This document shows positions 55,945-63,583 of a stretch of 64,000 bases of DNA, in pieces; positions within the stretch are counted from its first letter, which is position 1, and every line of letters starts with the position of its first letter. This DNA comes from Methylobacter sp. KS41 (GTDB taxonomy: Bacteria; Pseudomonadota; Gammaproteobacteria; Methylococcales; Methylomonadaceae). The notes beneath the pieces are model-generated. The model worked only from the letters and a program-made list of their open reading frames with translations. It searched no databases and was not told where the DNA came from. The DNA is taken from positions 806,001 through 870,000 of the forward strand of contig PHSP01000003.1 of the NCBI GenBank assembly GCA_002862125.1. Direction: 5' to 3'. The position numbers and the translations under genes were made by a program.

Positions 55945-57354
55945 ATGTCTGCAAAAAAAGTACTTAAAATGATTGAAGAAAACGACGTAAAATTCGTCGA
56001 TTTCCGGTTTTGCGATACCCGCGGCAAAGAACAGCATGTCACATTCCCTGCTCATACTATTGATGAAGATACCTTTGAAGAAGGCAATATGTTTGATGGT
56101 TCTTCGGTTGCCGGCTGGAAACACATCAATGAATCAGACATGATTTTGATGCCTGATCCATCAACTGCGGTCATGGATCCATTCTTTGATGACAACACCC
56201 TGATCTTGCGCTGCGACATTATTGAGCCCAAAAACATGCAGGGTTACGAACGTGACCCGCGTTCATTGGCCAAACGCGCGGAAAAATACTTGCAATCAAC
56301 CGGCATTGCGGATACTGCATTCTTCGGTCCTGAAAATGAATTCTTCATTTTTGATGATGTCCGTTGGGGCACTGATATGAGCGGTTCATTCTATAAAGTC
56401 GATTCAGAAGAAGCAGGCTGGAACTCGGAAAAAGTCTATCCGGATGGGAATACGGGCCATCGCCCAGGCGTTAAAGGCGGTTACTTTCCCGTGCCGCCTG
56501 TCGATTCTTTTCAGGACATGCGTTCTGCGATGTGCTTGACGCTGGAAGAAATGGGCATGGTTACCGAAGTCCATCATCACGAAGTCGCAACCGCCGGTCA
56601 ATGTGAAATCGGCGTAAAATTCAATACACTGGTTAAAAAAGCGGATGAAGTGCTGGAATTGAAATACGTTATTGCCAATATTGCTCATGCTTATGGCAAA
56701 ACAGCGACCTTCATGCCTAAACCTATAGTGGGCGATAATGGAAGCGGTATGCACGTTCACCAATCATTGGCTAAAAACGGCGTTAACCTGTTCACCGGTG
56801 ATTTGTACGGCGGCTTGTCTGAAACAGCCCTGTTCTATATCGGCGGCATTATCAAGCACGCAAGAGCGCTCAATGCATTTACCAACGCCTCAACCAACAG
56901 CTACAAACGTCTGGTGCCCGGCTTTGAAGCGCCGGTAATGCTGGCTTATTCAGCGCGTAACCGTTCAGCTTCCATTCGTATTCCTTTCGTGAACAATCCT
57001 AAAGGCCGCCGTATCGAAGTGCGTTTCCCTGACTCGACAGCAAACCCATATTTGGCGTTTTCCGCGATGTTGATGGCGGGTCTGGATGGCATTCTAAACA
57101 AAATTCATCCTGGCGATGCAATGGACAAGGATTTGTACGACCTGCCAGCCGAAGAAGCTAACAACATCCCGCAAGTTTGTCACGCATTTGATCAAGCCTT
57201 GGATGCCTTAAACAATGATCGTGAATTTTTAAAACAAGGCGGTGTTTTCACTGATGATGTGATCGACGGCTACATTGCCCTGAAAATGGAAGAAGTTACC
57301 CGTATTCGCATGAGCACGCACCCGGCAGAATATGATATGTACTATAGCTTGTAA
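55945..57354 (+). CDS. glnA: Glutamine synthetase type I
   Basis: The protein has 469 residues. GlnA makes glutamine from glutamate, ammonia and ATP as a dodecamer. Signatures are [16 protein letters not shown], the N-terminal part of the metal site [49 protein letters not shown] and the adenylylation tyrosine in LYDLPAEE near residue 398. The last shows control by GlnE. Length equals the proteobacterial norm. A strong terminator follows, then the attachment region of an integrated element. Confidence 0.98.
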
Positions 57355-57392
57355 TTTTTAGGGCTGTTTCATACAGTCCCACACAAGCTCAC

Positions 57393-57427
57393 AACCCCGC
57401 AAGTTTCCTGGCTTAGCGGGGTTTTTT
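57393..57427 (+). terminator. Intrinsic terminator of glnA
   Basis: Stem AACCCCGC/GCGGGGTT, with an inner AAG/CTT pairing, is followed directly by TTTT. It starts 38 bases after the glnA stop. It marks the end of the chromosomal gene before the inserted element. Confidence 0.92.
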
Positions 57428-57536: not shown

Positions 57537-58796
57537 ATGTTAAAAGATACAGAAATCAAAAAGTTAAAGGCCACAGGGAAGGAATATCAAAAGCCTGATA
57601 CTAAGGGACTGGTTTTAGTTATACGAGCTAAGGGAAGCAAGATTTGGCGCTATGAATATCGGATAGACGGCAAAAAGGATAAATACCATTACGGTAGCTA
57701 TCCTGAAATCAGTTTAGACAATGCCCGCAAAATCCACACAGTAGCAAGACAGCTTGTCGAGTTTGGCAAACATCCATCCACGCTTCTTGATAACCCCGAA
57801 GCAAAGCAGATGGCTATTGATGGTTGCAGCATTAAAGAGATTGAAGCCAAAGCTGCGGCAACCAAAGAAGCGGAAGCAGTCAAAGCCCTAATGACTTTTG
57901 GTGATGCCGCCGAAATATACAAAACTGAATGGGTTAATACTCACTGGAAAGACCCCGATAAAGGATGGACGCCGGTAAGACTGCACCTGTTACCCAAGCT
58001 GGCAGACTTGCCCCTGGAAACAATAGATGTTTCCATGCTGAGAGAATTGATTTATGACATTCGGGAATATAAGGGCGTAGCTATTGCTCTTCTATGTCAT
58101 GGCTGGGCGGATCGGATTTTTAGTTATGCCGTGGAGCATGATTATTGCAAACAAAATCCAGCTTCATTGATTAAAGCGGCGCGTGTTGGCATTCGCAACA
58201 AAAGAACCAGATGGCTAACAACACCGGAGATTAAGCGATACTTAACCGGGCTATATCAATCCAGTGCTTATCGAGGCTATAAGCTGGCCTTGCATTTGCT
58301 CTTGATGCTGGCGCTAAGAAAGGCTGAGTTATGCGGCGCGGCGTGGAGTGAAATAAACTTTGAAAAAGGGGAAATGCTGATACCGGCGGGCAGGATGAAA
58401 ACCAAAAAAGATCATCTTGTTATGCTTCCAGCTCAGGCAATAGAAATGCTTCAAGAGCTGCAACGATTAGGCGGCGGTAGTCCTTGGGTGATGCCGATGC
58501 CTACAAACCCAAGCCAAGCAATGCGAAGTCAAAACATAGACGGCGCACACAATGCCGCGCTTATGGCTGGGGATATTATCGATTACAACATCCACGACCA
58601 CCGGCATACCGCAAGTACACATCTCAGAGAGCAAGGCCATTCGCCCGAAGTGGTAGAAACAGCGTTAAGTCATGCTATCCCTGGCATGGCGGGCACATAT
58701 TCACACGCTCAGTACAAAACCCAACGGCTTGAAATGCTGCAATCATGGGCTAACTTTCTTGATACTGTGATGACTGAAAGAACCGTGATACAATAA
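57537..58796 (+). CDS. Tyrosine recombinase, P4-type integrase
   Basis: The protein has 419 residues. An N-terminal DUF4102 arm-binding domain has KGLVLVIRAKGSKIWRYEYR and YHYGSYPEISLDNAR. A core-binding domain follows, then a C-terminal catalytic domain. Catalytic residues seen are the Arg in MLALRKAELCGAAWSEI, HDHRHTAST (His-x-x-Arg), LSHAIPG (His) and the nucleophile Tyr in GTYSHAQY. It integrates and excises the island. The start is fixed by ATG 57537, directly after the repeat arm. Confidence 0.95.
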   Translation: MLKDTEIKKLKATGKEYQKPDTKGLVLVIRAKGSKIWRYEYRIDGKKDKYHYGSYPEISLDNARKIHTVARQLVEFGKHPSTLLDNPEAKQMAIDGCSIKEIEAKAAATKEAEAVKALMTFGDAAEIYKTEWVNTHWKDPDKGWTPVRLHLLPKLADLPLETIDVSMLRELIYDIREYKGVAIALLCHGWADRIFSYAVEHDYCKQNPASLIKAARVGIRNKRTRWLTTPEIKRYLTGLYQSSAYRGYKLALHLLLMLALRKAELCGAAWSEINFEKGEMLIPAGRMKTKKDHLVMLPAQAIEMLQELQRLGGGSPWVMPMPTNPSQAMRSQNIDGAHNAALMAGDIIDYNIHDHRHTASTHLREQGHSPEVVETALSHAIPGMAGTYSHAQYKTQRLEMLQSWANFLDTVMTERTVIQ

Positions 58797-59241: not shown

Positions 59242-59679
59242 ATGTACCATTATCAAGAATGCGGGTTAAAAAATATTTATCTTGTCAACGGTTATCAAGA
59301 GATTGATACGCCTCATGGAAAGGCGGTTTCAATTGCGGATGTTGACGGCTTAAATCGGGTTATTGCACATAACCTTATTACATACAAGCCAAAATTGACA
59401 GGTAGTGAGTTTAGATTTTTACGTAAATTCTTGGATATGTCTCAAGCTAAGCTTGCACTACTGCTTGGCAATAATGAACAGGCCGTAGCGCTATGGGAAA
59501 AGAAGAGCAATATTCCAAGGTGGGCAAGTAATATGCTTAGAAAGTTGGTTGGTGAATATCTTGGTGAAAACAAGACACTTATGGAAATTATTGAGCGATT
59601 CAATAATTTGGATCAAGATGAATATGGAGAGTCAATGCGCCTAGAAGAACAGAATCATGAATGGAAGATTGCTGCTTAA
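59242..59679 (+). CDS. HTH antitoxin/regulator paired with DUF4258
   Basis: The protein has 145 residues. The N-terminus YQECGLKNIYLVNGYQEIDT with a single CG motif resembles MqsA-like antitoxins that have lost part of the zinc site. The C-terminal Xre-type HTH reads SEFRFLRKFLDMSQAKLALLLGN with QAVALWEKKSNIP. AGGAGG lies at the ideal distance and overlaps the upstream stop, so the two genes are coupled. It likely neutralises the DUF4258 protein and represses the pair. Confidence 0.75.
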   Translation: MYHYQECGLKNIYLVNGYQEIDTPHGKAVSIADVDGLNRVIAHNLITYKPKLTGSEFRFLRKFLDMSQAKLALLLGNNEQAVALWEKKSNIPRWASNMLRKLVGEYLGENKTLMEIIERFNNLDQDEYGESMRLEEQNHEWKIAA

Positions 59680-59794: not shown

Positions 59795-59851
59795 TTAACC
59801 GGATAGCTCGACGGAGCAACAAGCGGGACTCATCCCCCCGCTTCCGGTTAA
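59795..59851. other. Three-way-junction DNA/RNA element
   Basis: An outer perfect 9-bp stem TTAACCGGA/TCCGGTTAA (59795-59803 and 59843-59851) encloses two inner hairpins: GCTC-gacg-GAGC (59806-59817) and AAGCGGG/CCCGCTT (59821-59827 and 59837-59843). The result is a clover-like fold. It is in a non-coding stretch (59680-59967) of the island, upstream of the replication genes. It could be a small RNA, a protein-binding cruciform or part of an origin. It is not a tRNA and has no terminator tail. Confidence 0.6.
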
Positions 59852-59967
59852 TCCCTTTTAGGATGGCTTACACTTTGATGGAGTGTTGATTGATGTAAGA
59901 AATATTATCAAAATTTAAGCGTGATGATATTACCATTACTGAAGCCATAGAACAGATAGAGAAATTT

Positions 59968-60354
59968 TTGCAAGTTAAACCCAAAGGAAAACGTGGCAGA
60001 CCAGAAAAGGCAAAAGTACCTCCTAAAAAGAATGGCAGGCCACGCCGTCTTTCAACATACCAAAAGAAGATTGCAATTATGACGGCTATAGTTGCTATAG
60101 ATGTTGAAAAAATACCATTGAGCAAAATGGAACAAAGGAAGATGTTGAGTGAATTATTTTGCGTTTCAGAAAGCAAGATTGATGCAACAATAACTGAATT
60201 AAACAAACGCGCTAATAATGGCGAAGTGGACGTTTGTATGGAAACCCGCGAAGTTAGATTTTTGCCTAAACAAAAAACGAAGAAAGTCAAACTACGAAGA
60301 TTTATGTTGTCCGAATATGCCAAAGCCGATCCTAAAAAACCCCCAATAAAATAA
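59968..60354 (+). CDS. Basic hypothetical protein of the island, possible truncated start
   Basis: The open frame runs from after a stop at about 59896 to 60354. No ATG or GTG exists before TTG 59968, which gives 128 residues. The stretch before it (GAA ATA TTA..., reading ITITEAIEQIEKFLQ) is protein-like, so the N-terminus may start at a non-standard codon or have been lost. The product is very basic (KGKRGRPEKAKVPPKKNGRPRR) with a helical middle and is probably DNA-binding, reminiscent of small regulators in satellites. No family is recognised. Confidence 0.5.
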   Translation: MQVKPKGKRGRPEKAKVPPKKNGRPRRLSTYQKKIAIMTAIVAIDVEKIPLSKMEQRKMLSELFCVSESKIDATITELNKRANNGEVDVCMETREVRFLPKQKTKKVKLRRFMLSEYAKADPKKPPIK

Positions 60355-60463: not shown

Positions 60464-60730
60464 ATGGTTATGACATCCAACATCTTGCCCATCATCAACC
60501 CCTTATATCGCCGCCCTATTGTCGAGCAGGCAACCGGCGATTCCAAGTCAACACTCTATCGCAAAATCAACCAAGGATTATTCACAAAGCCGGTCAAGAT
60601 AGGCGGCGAAAGAGTTGCATGGCCTGCAAATGAAGTACAGGCAATTAATAAAGCCCGCATTGCTGGAAAATCAGACGAGGAAATAAAGGCGCTGGTTATT
60701 GATCTGGAAGCGGCGCGGAAGGATTGTTAA
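60464..60730 (+). CDS. AlpA-family phage/satellite transcription regulator
   Basis: The protein has 88 residues. The wHTH of AlpA shows RRPIVEQATGDSKSTLYRKI and GERVAWPANEVQAINKARIAGKSDEEI. AlpA-type proteins activate integrase or replication genes of P4-like elements. An AGGA ribosome binding site lies at nine bases from ATG 60464. Upstream, CCCACG occurs twice 10 bases apart (60422-60437), a possible operator in one helical turn. Confidence 0.85.
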   Translation: MVMTSNILPIINPLYRRPIVEQATGDSKSTLYRKINQGLFTKPVKIGGERVAWPANEVQAINKARIAGKSDEEIKALVIDLEAARKDC

Positions 60731-60733
60731 AAC

Positions 60734-61642
60734 ATGGACAGATTAAGCACCGGGGCACCACACCCCGGCAGAACAAACGAAATACAGCGAGTCAATTATA
60801 CCAACGGCGATCTTACCCAGCAATTCAAAGACGCCATGCTGGATGCCGGAATAACTCCACCTGATGAAATCATTGCTGATGGCAAATTACACAGATTCAA
60901 AATTGATGGCAAGCTCAATGGAGCTTATAACTTACACCTGGACAATAGAGCAGCCGGTTACTTCCAGGACTTTCGGCAGGGTATAAAGCAAACCTGGAAG
61001 CAATCCGGTAATTTTATTCCTTTGTCTAACTTCCAGCGACAAGTCTTTAAAGCACAATGCCAACGCGAAGCAGAACAACGCCAAGCAGAAGAAGCAGCCA
61101 AGCACAAAGCGACAGCAAGCAAAGCAGTTTTTATCTGGAAGCCTGCACCGCCTGCGCCCTCTAACAATCCATATCTTGTAAAGAAACGTATCGGCACACA
61201 TGGCACACGTTTAGGCCGTGACAATGCGCTCATTATTCCTATTTACAACGCCAAGAACGATTTGGTTAATCTTCAATTTATCAGCGAGACGGCCGGCAAA
61301 AGGTTCTTGTCTGGCGGTCAGAAAAAAGGCTGTTTTTATTGCATTGGAGATCCCACAAATAAAATTCTGATTGCTGAGGGCTTCGCAACCGCAGCGAGTC
61401 TGTTTGAGTCTACCGGACTTCTAACGGTTGTGGCGTTCGATGCTGGCAACCTTAAAGAAGTAGCCATAAATATTAGGGCTTTATATCAAAATGCCGAGAT
61501 TGTTATTTGTGGCGATAATGACTTAAGCGGAGTTGGACAGAAAGCAGCGATTGAAGCGGCAGCAGCCATAAACGGCAAGTACATCATACCCGCGACACCG
61601 GGGCATGACTGGAACGACTCAATAACCGCGGAGGCCGTGTAA
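60734..61642 (+). CDS. Toprim-domain primase-like protein
   Basis: The protein has 302 residues. An N-terminal zinc-free primase/AEP-like region (HRFKIDGKLNGAYNLHLDNR) is followed by a Toprim domain with ILIAEGFATAASLFE (catalytic Glu) and IVICGDNDLSGVGQKAA (the DxD pair). It resembles the N-terminal half of P4 alpha primase/helicase. Here primase and helicase functions are split between this and the next gene, which overlaps by one base. It should prime island replication. Confidence 0.85.
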   Translation: MDRLSTGAPHPGRTNEIQRVNYTNGDLTQQFKDAMLDAGITPPDEIIADGKLHRFKIDGKLNGAYNLHLDNRAAGYFQDFRQGIKQTWKQSGNFIPLSNFQRQVFKAQCQREAEQRQAEEAAKHKATASKAVFIWKPAPPAPSNNPYLVKKRIGTHGTRLGRDNALIIPIYNAKNDLVNLQFISETAGKRFLSGGQKKGCFYCIGDPTNKILIAEGFATAASLFESTGLLTVVAFDAGNLKEVAINIRALYQNAEIVICGDNDLSGVGQKAAIEAAAAINGKYIIPATPGHDWNDSITAEAV

Positions 61643-63153
61643 TGAAACCGGATTTTGTATCTATTCTCAATTCTGCTCAATCCGCAACATTTGAGCCGGA
61701 GCCATTACGCGCACCATTACCCAAGGCTGAACCCTATCCAGTCGAGAGTTTAGGCAATGTTTTAGGATCGGCAGCACAGGCGTTACATGAAACCGTTAAA
61801 GCTCCACTGGCGTTATGTTGTCAGTCTGTACTTGCAGCCGCATCACTAGCAGCACAGGCGCATTTTGATGTTATGTTGCCTTGGGGACAGAAAAAGCCAT
61901 TATCATTATTCTTGCTTTCGGTTGCTGAATCAGGCGAGCGTAAGTCCGGAATTGATGATGTAGTCCTTGGCGCAGCAAAAGCACAAGAACGCCTGGACAT
62001 GGAAGGCTATCAAATGGAACTGGAAAGGTACGAGGCAGACTTGGCAAGGTGGAAGGCCGAAAGCGACCAGCAGAACAAAAAATCAGCAGGGGCTAAAAGT
62101 CAGGCGGCGAGTGATTACGAAGCCGAAGCAACGTACAGTAACCCGAAGCCCAAAGCACCCGTCATGCCGTTACGGTTTGTCAGTGAACCAACGGTAGAGG
62201 GTTTATATAAATTGCTGGCAGCTGGTCAGCCCAGCGTAGGCTTGTTTTCCGATGAAGCGGGCTTGCTGATTGGGGGCCATGCCATGAATAGTGATAACGC
62301 TCTAAAGACCATGGCGCGGTTATGTAAATTTTGGGACGGCGCGTCATTTGATCGGGTAAGGGCTGGCGATGGTAGCGGCAGCCTATACGGTAGGCGGCTG
62401 GCTATGCACCAACAAGCGCAACCTGATGTTATGGCTAAACTGTTAAGTGACCCTATGGCTAATGGGCAGGGCTTTCTTGCCCGTTGCCTGGTTGCATGGC
62501 CTGAATCAACTATAGGCAGTAGGTACGTAGCTAATTTTGAATGGGCCGGGGAACGGCAGGAATTAAAACGCTTATTTGTTGTACTGATAACATTATTTCA
62601 AGCGGAACCACGAACCGCAAAATCAGAGCAGGAACTTGATCCGGTAGAGCTTCCGCTTGATGAAGATGCAAAACAAATGGCAATGGCGGCAATAAATGAA
62701 TTTGAAACGCTTATGCAATCTGGTAATGATTTATTTGAAATCCGAGAACGCACAGCTAAAGCGGTTGAAAATGCGTGTCGTATCGCTGGCGTACTGGCGG
62801 TAATTGATGACGGGATGGCTACCCGTGCAATCAGCGCAAAGCACCTTGGACAGGGCTTAATATTGATTCAATGGTATTTGAAAGAAGCATTACGCATACG
62901 CGGCGCGGCGGTTGTTCCTCAATCTACTACCGACGCTGAATCATTATCAAAATGGCTTAATGAACGCGGTTATAGGGCGTTTAGATCACGACAGGTACTA
63001 ACCAAAGGGCCGAGTCAATTACGCAACAAAAAGCGCCTAGATGACGCCATAAAGGAACTTGTAGAAAATGGTTATCTTAGTCCTAACGAGCCTGGAACCA
63101 TCATCGATGGCGTAAGCACGAAGAAATCATGGAGCGTTCGCCATGTGGTTTAA
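61642..63153 (+). CDS. DUF3987 (YfjI-type) helicase-like protein
   Basis: The protein has 503 residues. It has the DUF3987/YfjI organisation with a P-loop variant SVAESGERKSGID near residue 100, where the usual Gly/Lys context GxxxxGKS is replaced by GERKS. It also has GLFSDEAGLLIGGHAM (Walker B-like) and ARCLVAWPESTIGSRYV. A charged linker (about 125-165) splits the motor. It acts with the Toprim protein in island replication; helicase activity is inferred from P4 alpha analogy. Confidence 0.82.
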   Translation: MKPDFVSILNSAQSATFEPEPLRAPLPKAEPYPVESLGNVLGSAAQALHETVKAPLALCCQSVLAAASLAAQAHFDVMLPWGQKKPLSLFLLSVAESGERKSGIDDVVLGAAKAQERLDMEGYQMELERYEADLARWKAESDQQNKKSAGAKSQAASDYEAEATYSNPKPKAPVMPLRFVSEPTVEGLYKLLAAGQPSVGLFSDEAGLLIGGHAMNSDNALKTMARLCKFWDGASFDRVRAGDGSGSLYGRRLAMHQQAQPDVMAKLLSDPMANGQGFLARCLVAWPESTIGSRYVANFEWAGERQELKRLFVVLITLFQAEPRTAKSEQELDPVELPLDEDAKQMAMAAINEFETLMQSGNDLFEIRERTAKAVENACRIAGVLAVIDDGMATRAISAKHLGQGLILIQWYLKEALRIRGAAVVPQSTTDAESLSKWLNERGYRAFRSRQVLTKGPSQLRNKKRLDDAIKELVENGYLSPNEPGTIIDGVSTKKSWSVRHVV

Positions 63154-63583
63154 TCCGGCTGAATTATCCAAAATTCAAACAACACCCCTTGCTAATCCTG
63201 CTAATTACGAACCGGATATAGGAGAAACAAAGTCTACGATTAGCAGGATTAGCAGGATTAGCAGAATTAGCAGCACCCTTGCCAGCGAGAAGCCTGTTAA
63301 TTGTGGGCAATGTCTGCACTTCAAAAGCTATAGCTTACATGGTAAGGGTTCTGGTATCTGCACCAATAGCGGGGACTATGGGTCATGGAGCGAAACACAG
63401 CACCAGTGCGCTAAATTTGATGCAGCCGTTGAATGGTTGGAGTTGCCCGAACCATCACCGGGCGCTTTGATAGTTACTTGTTACACGCCAAACGGAAAGG
63501 CTATCGAGGTTGAGTCAACCAGCCCGGAACATGCAGAAATTTTGCAGCGAATGAACCCAAAGAGGCCAGAAAATGGCGAATAA
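63143..63583 (+). CDS. Island protein with NPAN...ISRISRIS low-complexity stretch and cysteine motifs
   Basis: The protein has 146 residues and overlaps the preceding gene by 11 bases. The N-terminal part encodes LANPANY and then ISRISRISRISS, produced by 9-bp repeats that are inverted relative to each other (see the repeat entry). The rest has a CGQCLHF pair, CTNSGDYGSWSETQHQCAKF, suggesting a small zinc-binding fold. No family name is recognised. Similar composition next to DUF3987 genes is something I recall from other elements, but I cannot verify it here. Confidence 0.6.
   Translation: MWFNPAELSKIQTTPLANPANYEPDIGETKSTISRISRISRISSTLASEKPVNCGQCLHFKSYSLHGKGSGICTNSGDYGSWSETQHQCAKFDAAVEWLELPEPSPGALIVTCYTPNGKAIEVESTSPEHAEILQRMNPKRPENGE
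63191..63274. repeat. Iterated 9-bp repeats forming a perfect 15-bp inverted repeat
   Basis: GCTAATCCTGCTAAT (63191-63205) is the exact reverse complement of ATTAGCAGGATTAGC (63239-63253), with a 33-base loop. The right arm continues as four tandem 9-bp units, ATTAGCAGG twice, then ATTAGCAGA and ATTAGCAGC (63239-63274). The element lies within a coding frame just after the replication genes and may act as iterons or a DNA/RNA hairpin. Confidence 0.85.

Follow-up and report, generated by a model that had tools for sequence, protein, structure and literature searches.

Directly downstream of a DUF3987/YfjI helicase gene of Methylobacter sp. KS41, an array of short repeats lies within the coding sequence of the next gene. 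It was analysed in a stretch of 64,000 nucleotides (contig PHSP01000003.1, positions 806,001 to 870,000 of the forward strand; hereafter the window), where it belongs to a compact integrative element. A Toprim primase gene (60734-61642) and the helicase gene (61642-63153) precede it, in agreement with an initial annotation made from the sequence alone, and the array begins 35 bp past the helicase stop. Its right arm consists of four tandem 9-bp units (63238-63273) and its left arm of two inverted units (63189-63205), all at 9-bp steps. The units, and the open reading frame (ORF) that contains them, are as follows.

63189..63196, minus strand: left-arm unit 1; the minus strand reads ATTAGCAA
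63198..63205, minus strand: left-arm unit 2, ATTAGCAG
63206..63238, no strand: gap between the arms, 33 bp, three-turn class
63239..63246, plus strand: right-arm unit 1, ATTAGCAG
63248..63255, plus strand: right-arm unit 2, ATTAGCAG
63257..63264, plus strand: right-arm unit 3, ATTAGCAG
63266..63273, plus strand: right-arm unit 4, ATTAGCAG; the preceding base is A, not G
63143..63583, plus strand: ORF hosting the array in its N-terminal part; its start overlaps the helicase gene by 11 bp

Direct reading and a repeat search both recover the four tandem units and the upstream inverted copy that had been described. The repeat search found 18-nt copies, three in register and spaced 9 bp, over 63238-63273, and two 16-nt inverted pairs with 100% complementarity: 63190-63205 with 63239-63254 (33 nt between) and 63190-63205 with 63248-63263 (42 nt between). 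The inverted repeat is indeed perfect and inside a gene, although its arm is 16 bp long and not 15 bp as first given. All of the repeats are in frame in the ORF, where they read LANPANY and ISRISRISRISS. GATTAGCAG occurs three times in the window against 0.39 expected, a count reached in 0 of 100 shuffles, and the 18-mer GATTAGCAGGATTAGCAG is confined to this array genome-wide (two overlapping matches). An exact search for GATTAGCAGGATTAGCAG in viral contigs returned 17 stretches, most of which appear by eye to be solitary double units in other settings, in many cases readable as AGLAGLAG/A. The sole match resembling a repeated array is in viral contig L018, where many GATTAGCAG-like units lie in both orientations at 2400-2750.

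Arrays downstream of related helicases

Relatives were drawn from whole genomes of the order and class, GTDB contigs (the best 80 of 396), viral contigs and plasmids, by similarity to the window helicase and to an alignment of eight helicases known to carry repeats. The resulting 162 loci (L054-L215) include 148 with a helicase match, 144 with a closed ORF and 132 that are distinct, all of the latter with a complete helicase end; the titles of the fetched GTDB contigs are chiefly of Proteobacteria, with a few other phyla. The detector was blind to unit sequence, requiring any 6-mer at least twice and then its reverse complement at least twice. As the identical 6-mer is needed twice per side, arrays with divergent units are undercounted. 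An inverted cluster of this kind (2+2), centred between -250 and +500 of the helicase stop, is found in 75 of the 132 loci, a proportion that is not a prevalence because the collection is biased toward repeat-bearing helicases. Counted in 250-bp bins, clusters are present in 70/132 loci in the first bin after the stop, in 5/129 in the next and in 0 to 2 in all others, with a background of 0.00089 per bin in first-order resampled loci. The aligned units share the pattern [A/T][G/T]T[A/C]GCA[A/G], with letters that vary by element (ATTAGCAG, AGTAGCAA, TGTCGCAA, AATAGCAG, ATTAGGAn, TTTCGCCC and others), and three units is the commonest arm (48 left and 52 right arms of the 75).

The gap between the arms follows the 10.5-bp helical repeat of DNA. 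It measures 11-12, 22-23 or 32-33 bp in 59/75 elements, and the mean resultant length (R) is 0.81 at 10.5 bp, the peak of a scan from 8 to 13.75 bp, and 0.31 at 3 bp. In a set thinned below 45% identity (21 elements), R is 0.67, which was equalled in 0/5000 sets with gaps jittered by up to 5 bp. Phasing of about 10.5 bp is expected if proteins on both arms must face the same side of the helix.

In the same relatives, the DNA is more conserved than the protein: they keep the inverted units in both orientations, and not the peptide, the frame or the exact letters, and the repeat copy number varies. The outcome is the opposite of the one named in the initial annotation as refuting a role for the DNA, namely amino acids kept and DNA repeats lost. 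Beside the most similar helicase (L022/L026; helicase 85% identical, ORF 47%), both arms are kept and the right arm is read as QLAGLAGLAE, not ISRISRISRISS, the same repeats being in a different frame. L027 and L031 each have two right arrays per ORF in two frames (EISRISEISS and KLAELAELAT in L027). For the alignment and frame count, L148 and L150 (helicase ORFs of 7 and 23 amino acids) and L154 (reversed) were left out. Of the 72 right arms scored, 67 fall in a mechanical ORF of 60 or more amino acids; 48 of these keep a single phase (35, 8 and 5 in the respective phases), and the other 19 shift frame partway along the array through 8-, 10-, 11- or 17-bp steps. L073 has its left arm in the last codons of the helicase and its right arm in no ORF of 60 amino acids. 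The window ORF itself has a conserved C-terminal part and an N-terminal part that is exchanged between relatives. Among 30 loci found through the ORF (each only about 2-3.4 kb long), an inverted array is present in 11/12 with the helicase seen versus 5/18 without it. Thus, the array travels with the helicase and not with the ORF. The peptide over the array is, to judge from these comparisons, a by-product.

Covariation of unit bases with helicase residues

An AlphaFold2 model of the window helicase (mean predicted local distance difference test score 87.3) has MCM helicases as its best fold matches (E 2.5e-5), and a winged helix is predicted at the C-terminus, with a helix at 427-442, a strand at 446-448, helices at 449-455 and 463-475, and wing strands to 499. 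DUF3987 was previously only a predicted helicase (PMC5862659). PDB sequence searches with the helicase and with a C-terminal profile gave nothing better than E 0.2. A fold search with the C-terminal domain alone returned generic winged helices (best E 0.03); the P4 alpha domain is not among the matches listed, which excludes nothing. The domain and the three residues discussed below are encoded as follows.

62920..63138, plus strand: winged-helix domain codons, residues 427-499 (predicted structure)
62989..62991, plus strand: codon of residue 450 (R), which pairs with unit base 2 by covariation, the window being an exception
63001..63003, plus strand: codon of residue 454 (T), which pairs with unit base 4 by covariation
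63022..63024, plus strand: codon of residue 461 (R), which pairs with unit base 6 by covariation

Similarity of the units correlates with similarity of the helicase C-terminus once the helicase core is accounted for (partial r 0.12, 0/2000 permutations as large, 72 elements). In sliding windows along the protein, the signal is highest at residues 440-479 (0.22) and then 420-459 (0.15), with other windows at -0.19 to 0.08. For the residue analysis, L083, L090, L091 and L138 were also left out (C-terminus unaligned or unit unlike the rest), leaving 68 elements; the excluded elements were picked by hand after the results were seen. The alignment column that scores highest for base 2 is residue 450 (z 17.8, against 5.8 for the next column); for base 4 it is residue 454 (17.7 against 5.8), and for base 6 residue 461 (22.5 against 11.9). 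Base 5 is invariant and base 8 has too few rows.

These pairings amount to a simple rule. R or K is present at 450 in 33/35 elements with G at base 2, and other residues in 30/32 with T or A. At base 4, A is accompanied by Q or T at 454 in 42/44 elements and C by R, N, K or H in 24/24, while at base 6 all 63 elements with C have R461 and all five with G have T or D. Contact of Gln with A, like that of Arg with G, is classical; where base 4 is C, Arg would read the G of the opposite strand. In the predicted structure, residues 450, 454 and 461 lie outside the usual recognition helix, in the second helix and the turn leading into the third.

The covariation recurs across the helicase-core tree. 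Base 4 and the residue-454 class change 15 times each and share a branch in 13 cases (8 for the best other column); base 2 and residue 450 change 17 times each and share a branch in 12 (7 for the best other column). Columns 450, 454 and 461 are still on top with the set thinned to 49 elements. A confirmation scan, restricted to NTNG[C/G] units, covered the 57 loci outside the discovery set, three of which lack an aligned C-terminus, and called 23 arrays. The rule holds in 20/23 of these arrays for base 2 and 22/23 for base 4, where a majority guess gives 12/23 and 13/23, respectively; the base 6 score of 22/22 is weak because 21/22 scored units have C. The misses are L074, L111 and L193, and the ATAGC class beside the stop of L074 would fit the rule. 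L074 has ATAGC units around the helicase stop and GTCGC units about 100-180 bp further on, as if two origins had been joined. The covariation strongly suggests that the C-terminal domain of the helicase binds the units.

As the rule predicts, three GTCGC units lie downstream of the YfjI helicase in L098, a 19-kb circular plasmid of Pseudomonas putida T25-27; no inverted arm was called in this locus. The helicase is the only likely initiator recognised among the 15 annotated genes of the plasmid, whose gene table is incomplete. This fits a self-sufficient replicon.

A probable origin and its proposed recognition by the element's helicase

We consider it highly probable that the repeats are iterons bound by the C-terminal winged helix of the element's own DUF3987/YfjI helicase, and that they most likely serve as a replication origin or crr-like cis site. 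The covariation suggests physical binding of the helicase, and analogy with P4 alpha and SaPI Rep suggests the origin function, the two assemblies and the sequence in which the DNA would be opened and primed. Helicase monomers would dock on the 9-bp units through their C-terminal domains, and the inverted arms, on one face of the DNA and about a whole number of turns apart, would seat two oppositely oriented helicase assemblies. The MCM-like ring would then open the DNA, and the neighbouring Toprim primase would prime synthesis. The array would occupy the N-terminal codons of the next gene, with the peptide there as a by-product. Selection on the DNA as an origin or protein-binding site, proposed in the initial annotation, is the best-supported reading, and the helicase C-terminal domain appears to be the binding partner.

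Several observations weigh against this. The window helicase has R450, for which the rule expects G, yet the window units have T at base 2; the base 2 rule holds in 63/67 scored elements, the exceptions being the window, L145, L071 and L182. The top columns for bases 1, 3 and 7 are outside the C-terminal domain. Base 6 switches only twice on the tree and at least five other columns match both switches, a test that says little because there are only two changes. In sets thinned to 24 or 20 elements, 461 is top, 454 is first or tied narrowly and 450 is fourth or lower, with 2x2 tables for 450 and 454 still at p 0.0002 to 0.0014. No array was found by either detector in 34/132 loci, none was seen in the test case of E. 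coli K-12 CP4-57 yfjI, and the units of L154 are in opposite orientation. The 16/75 gaps outside the main classes are 0, 8, 15, 26, 30, 30, 34, 41, 42, 45, 54, 55, 72, 75, 76 and 85 bp, of which 0, 8, 15, 26, 30, 30, 34 and 72 fit poorly. AT enrichment between the arms is slight (0.06). Finally, the array is the only ATTAGCA cluster seen in and around the element (L020, 1400-17900), whereas P4 has both ori1 and crr.

Other explanations of the repeats find less to recommend them. The repeats could act at the protein level, as a recurring tripeptide that serves in structure or binding, and the DNA repeat would then simply reflect a tandem duplication of recent date. The reading frame does run through the array without a stop, 9 bp is divisible by three, and most right arms (67/72) are inside an ORF; however, the same units are read in different frames, the 19 frame-changing arrays do so by non-triplet steps, the arms of L073 lie in the helicase end and outside long ORFs, the gaps fit 10.5 bp better than 3, and the unit covaries with another protein, the helicase. 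We give this explanation very little credence. A hairpin or cruciform in DNA or RNA, such as the stem-loop origin proposed for pRN1 or an mRNA structure, seems very unlikely. The window arms do pair perfectly over 16 bp, and the proposed origin of pRN1 is a large stem-loop 3' of the primase-helicase gene (PMC4234260), but in the relatives the mirrored unit spacings are unequal in 36/71 elements and pairing is perfect in only 12/59 spacer triplets, so that the long hairpin first envisaged is not supported as such. Mirrored spacer triplets pair at 0.54 versus 0.44 when re-dealt (11/2000 as high), a weak signal, and a hairpin needs neither helical phasing nor residue-base covariation.

The site might instead be bound by the helicase for control (autoregulation, copy-number handcuffing, incompatibility or a crr-like enhancer), with replication starting elsewhere. 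P4, with both ori1 and a crr carrying type-1 repeats, offers a precedent, and a second cluster of at least three of the element's own units is found in 8/73 loci (L056, L076, L077, L081, L095, L119, L148 and L184). In L056, L076, L077, L081 and L184 this cluster is about 1.4-1.5 kb upstream of the helicase stop, near the start of the helicase part, and the two sites are possibly a pair like ori1 and crr. Against a separate start, the other 65/73 loci have no second cluster within the stretches covered, the window's element likewise shows none, and SaPI origins lie at the same place relative to rep (PMC7581432); we regard a control site as unlikely. It is most improbable that another protein binds the array as a partition (centromere-like) or packaging site. 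Such sites also have tandem and inverted repeats, but the covariation is with helicase C-terminal residues, and no parA/parB or terminase gene was recognised among the element ORFs, eight of which were scanned against families.

The preferred reading, an iteron array read by the helicase, has close parallels. SaPI Rep, an initiator helicase that loads itself, uses its C-terminal domain to recognise short iterons that immediately follow its own gene (PMC7581432). The window iterons are likewise directly downstream of the helicase gene, as in SaPI Rep and SCCmec Cch2, and covariation at 450, 454 and 461 (the window's R450 being an exception) suggests that the C-terminal domain may determine recognition of the units. 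However, the window helicase belongs to DUF3987 (1e-87, the only Pfam match at E 0.001), unlike the DUF927 or Primase_Cterm/D5-related SaPI proteins, and because of this difference in family the system was not filed as SaPI Rep/ori. The window array also differs in its placement within the coding sequence of the following gene, and the excerpted SaPI description mentions neither helical phasing nor a rule linking residues to bases (PMC7581432). P4 crr, annotated as required in cis for replication, is just 3' of the alpha gene and contains 8-bp type-1 units in inverted clusters, with a spacing of 9 bp between some of them, which fits the parallel with P4-like satellites drawn in the initial annotation. 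The window array similarly consists of inverted short units just 3' of a helicase gene. The differences are that alpha is a single primase-helicase of 777 amino acids, where the window has separate Toprim and DUF3987 genes; that the type-1 unit is TGTTCACC, not ATTAGCAG; that P4 uses two sites, where one array is seen in the window's element; and that crr unit orientations are mixed, where those of the window are left-reverse and right-forward. By analogy, the window system may work as SaPI Rep/ori and P4 alpha/crr do, with a helicase of a different family.

Other systems share parts of this arrangement. In the PLE satellites of Vibrio cholerae, the origin-binding domain of RepA covaries with ori, and replication needs a cognate pair (PMC8263062), as the C-terminal domain of the DUF3987/YfjI helicases covaries with the units. 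PLE RepA is, however, of RepA_N type and not a predicted primase or helicase (PMC7145576), and PLE iterons are about 30 bp and semi-palindromic. The archaeal plasmid pRN1 resembles the window in having its proposed origin just 3' of the primase-helicase gene ORF904, with an inverted repeat and a C-terminal winged helix (PMC4234260), but its enzyme is of AEP (archaeo-eukaryotic primase)/SF3 (superfamily 3) type and its origin is read there as a stem-loop without iterons. Stem-loop origins of the pRN1 type, unconserved in sequence, might be re-read as inverted arrays with plasmid-specific units (PMC4234260). Classical iteron plasmids differ in that a Rep_3/RepA-type gene accompanies the iterons; no plasmid-type Rep family was found at E 0.001 among the eight element proteins scanned, which include all in-window neighbours of the array except the partial last ORF.

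A broader joint reading is plausible but tentative, and we hesitate to favour it. DUF3987/YfjI mobile-element helicases, here mainly of Proteobacteria, would read their origins by a simple and largely predictable rule (450/454/461 to bases 2/4/6), located in a predicted helix and the turn before the recognition helix. The origin would be a phased inverted array, often of 3+3 units, hidden in coding sequence and seating two MCM-like rings in opposite orientation. If rule and array switched together repeatedly, replicons that exclude one another would arise, under pressure from incompatibility or from phages that attack origins. In PLE satellites, evasion of a phage nuclease has been connected with a change of origin specificity (PMC8263062). 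Two such helicases occur together in genome G041, where their unit classes differ (L057 TTAGC, L103 AATCGC), and in genome G336, where they share one class (L084, L095), so that incompatibility between unit classes is not supported either way.

Initiator helicases with downstream iterons are already known. As far as our searches show, the assignment to DUF3987/YfjI, the placement inside the coding sequence of the next gene, the helical phasing and the residue-base rule are new, and no paper on iterons of DUF3987/YfjI helicases was recognised among the open-access papers listed. For the DUF3987 family, this provides a concrete predicted site of binding, a likely origin and a rule of recognition that can be tested; with it, sequence data could serve to find and classify the origins of islands, satellites and plasmids that are as yet uncharacterised. 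Curious runs of repeated tripeptides (VATVATVAV, ISRISRISRISS, GIAGIAGIAG) would be explained as shadows of DNA sites. The repeated co-switching of residues and bases offers a natural experiment on how initiators change origin specificity, and the combination of phased, inverted arms with a neighbouring helicase predicted to be MCM-like points to a simple model, in bacteria, of how two rings are loaded.

The integrative element and its surroundings

The element is integrated at glnA and spans about 6.9 kb between its probable ends, which are marked by a direct repeat of the glnA 3' end and its terminator. Its order is integrase, three small ORFs, int-alpA RNA, AlpA, Toprim primase, DUF3987 helicase, the array ORF and two small ORFs.

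57340..57427, no strand: left attachment repeat, the glnA 3' end and its terminator (12-bp exact and 52-bp 90% direct repeat)
57537..58796, plus strand: tyrosine integrase (Pfam Phage_integrase, 8.1e-23)
59796..59863, plus strand: int-alpA RNA (RF02996; 52.3 bits, gathering 35.8)
60464..60730, plus strand: AlpA-type regulator (Pfam Phage_AlpA, 6e-09)
60734..61642, plus strand: Toprim primase (Toprim_3, 1.8e-12; PHROG DNA primase, 1.5e-59)
61642..63153, plus strand: DUF3987/YfjI helicase, proposed initiator with a predicted MCM-like core (Pfam DUF3987, 1e-87)
64269..64332 on the window scale (L020 8270-8333): right attachment copy, starting about 270 bp beyond the window end

The int-alpA RNA is between the ORFs 59242-59679 and 59968-60354, upstream of alpA. 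The array ORF (63143-63583) has no Pfam or PHROG family at E 0.001, and its conserved C-terminal part (63300-63583) shows a Cys-x2-Cys...Cys...Cys pattern and a VTCYTPNGK-like stretch. Searches with the ORF protein in viral contigs and plasmids, and with both the ORF and helicase proteins in phage records, gave no match; the helicase relative L131 as query gave one weak phage record. The window helicase is also found in the same-genus genome G039 and in Methylobacter psychrophilus.

The PICMI satellites are small integrative elements that carry int, alpA and a gene for a DUF3987/DUF5906 'primase'; PICMI115 is 6,110 bp long, and deletion of prim lowers its circular copies (PMC10803314). The window's element is similarly compact and carries int, alpA and DUF3987, but is integrated at glnA, as its flanking repeats indicate, unlike the PICMIs, which are at fis. 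The word 'iteron' appears nowhere in the main text of the PICMI paper (PMC10803314).

In one of five congener loci compared (L223), alignment resumes past glnA at an ntrB-like gene, and both the element and a defence region to its right are absent between the two genes. That region (L020 8599-17744) has a type I methyltransferase and specificity subunits, followed by DndD-, DndE- and DndH-like genes. The methyltransferase, DndD and DndH matches, the last to the C-terminal part only, are each split over two ORFs.
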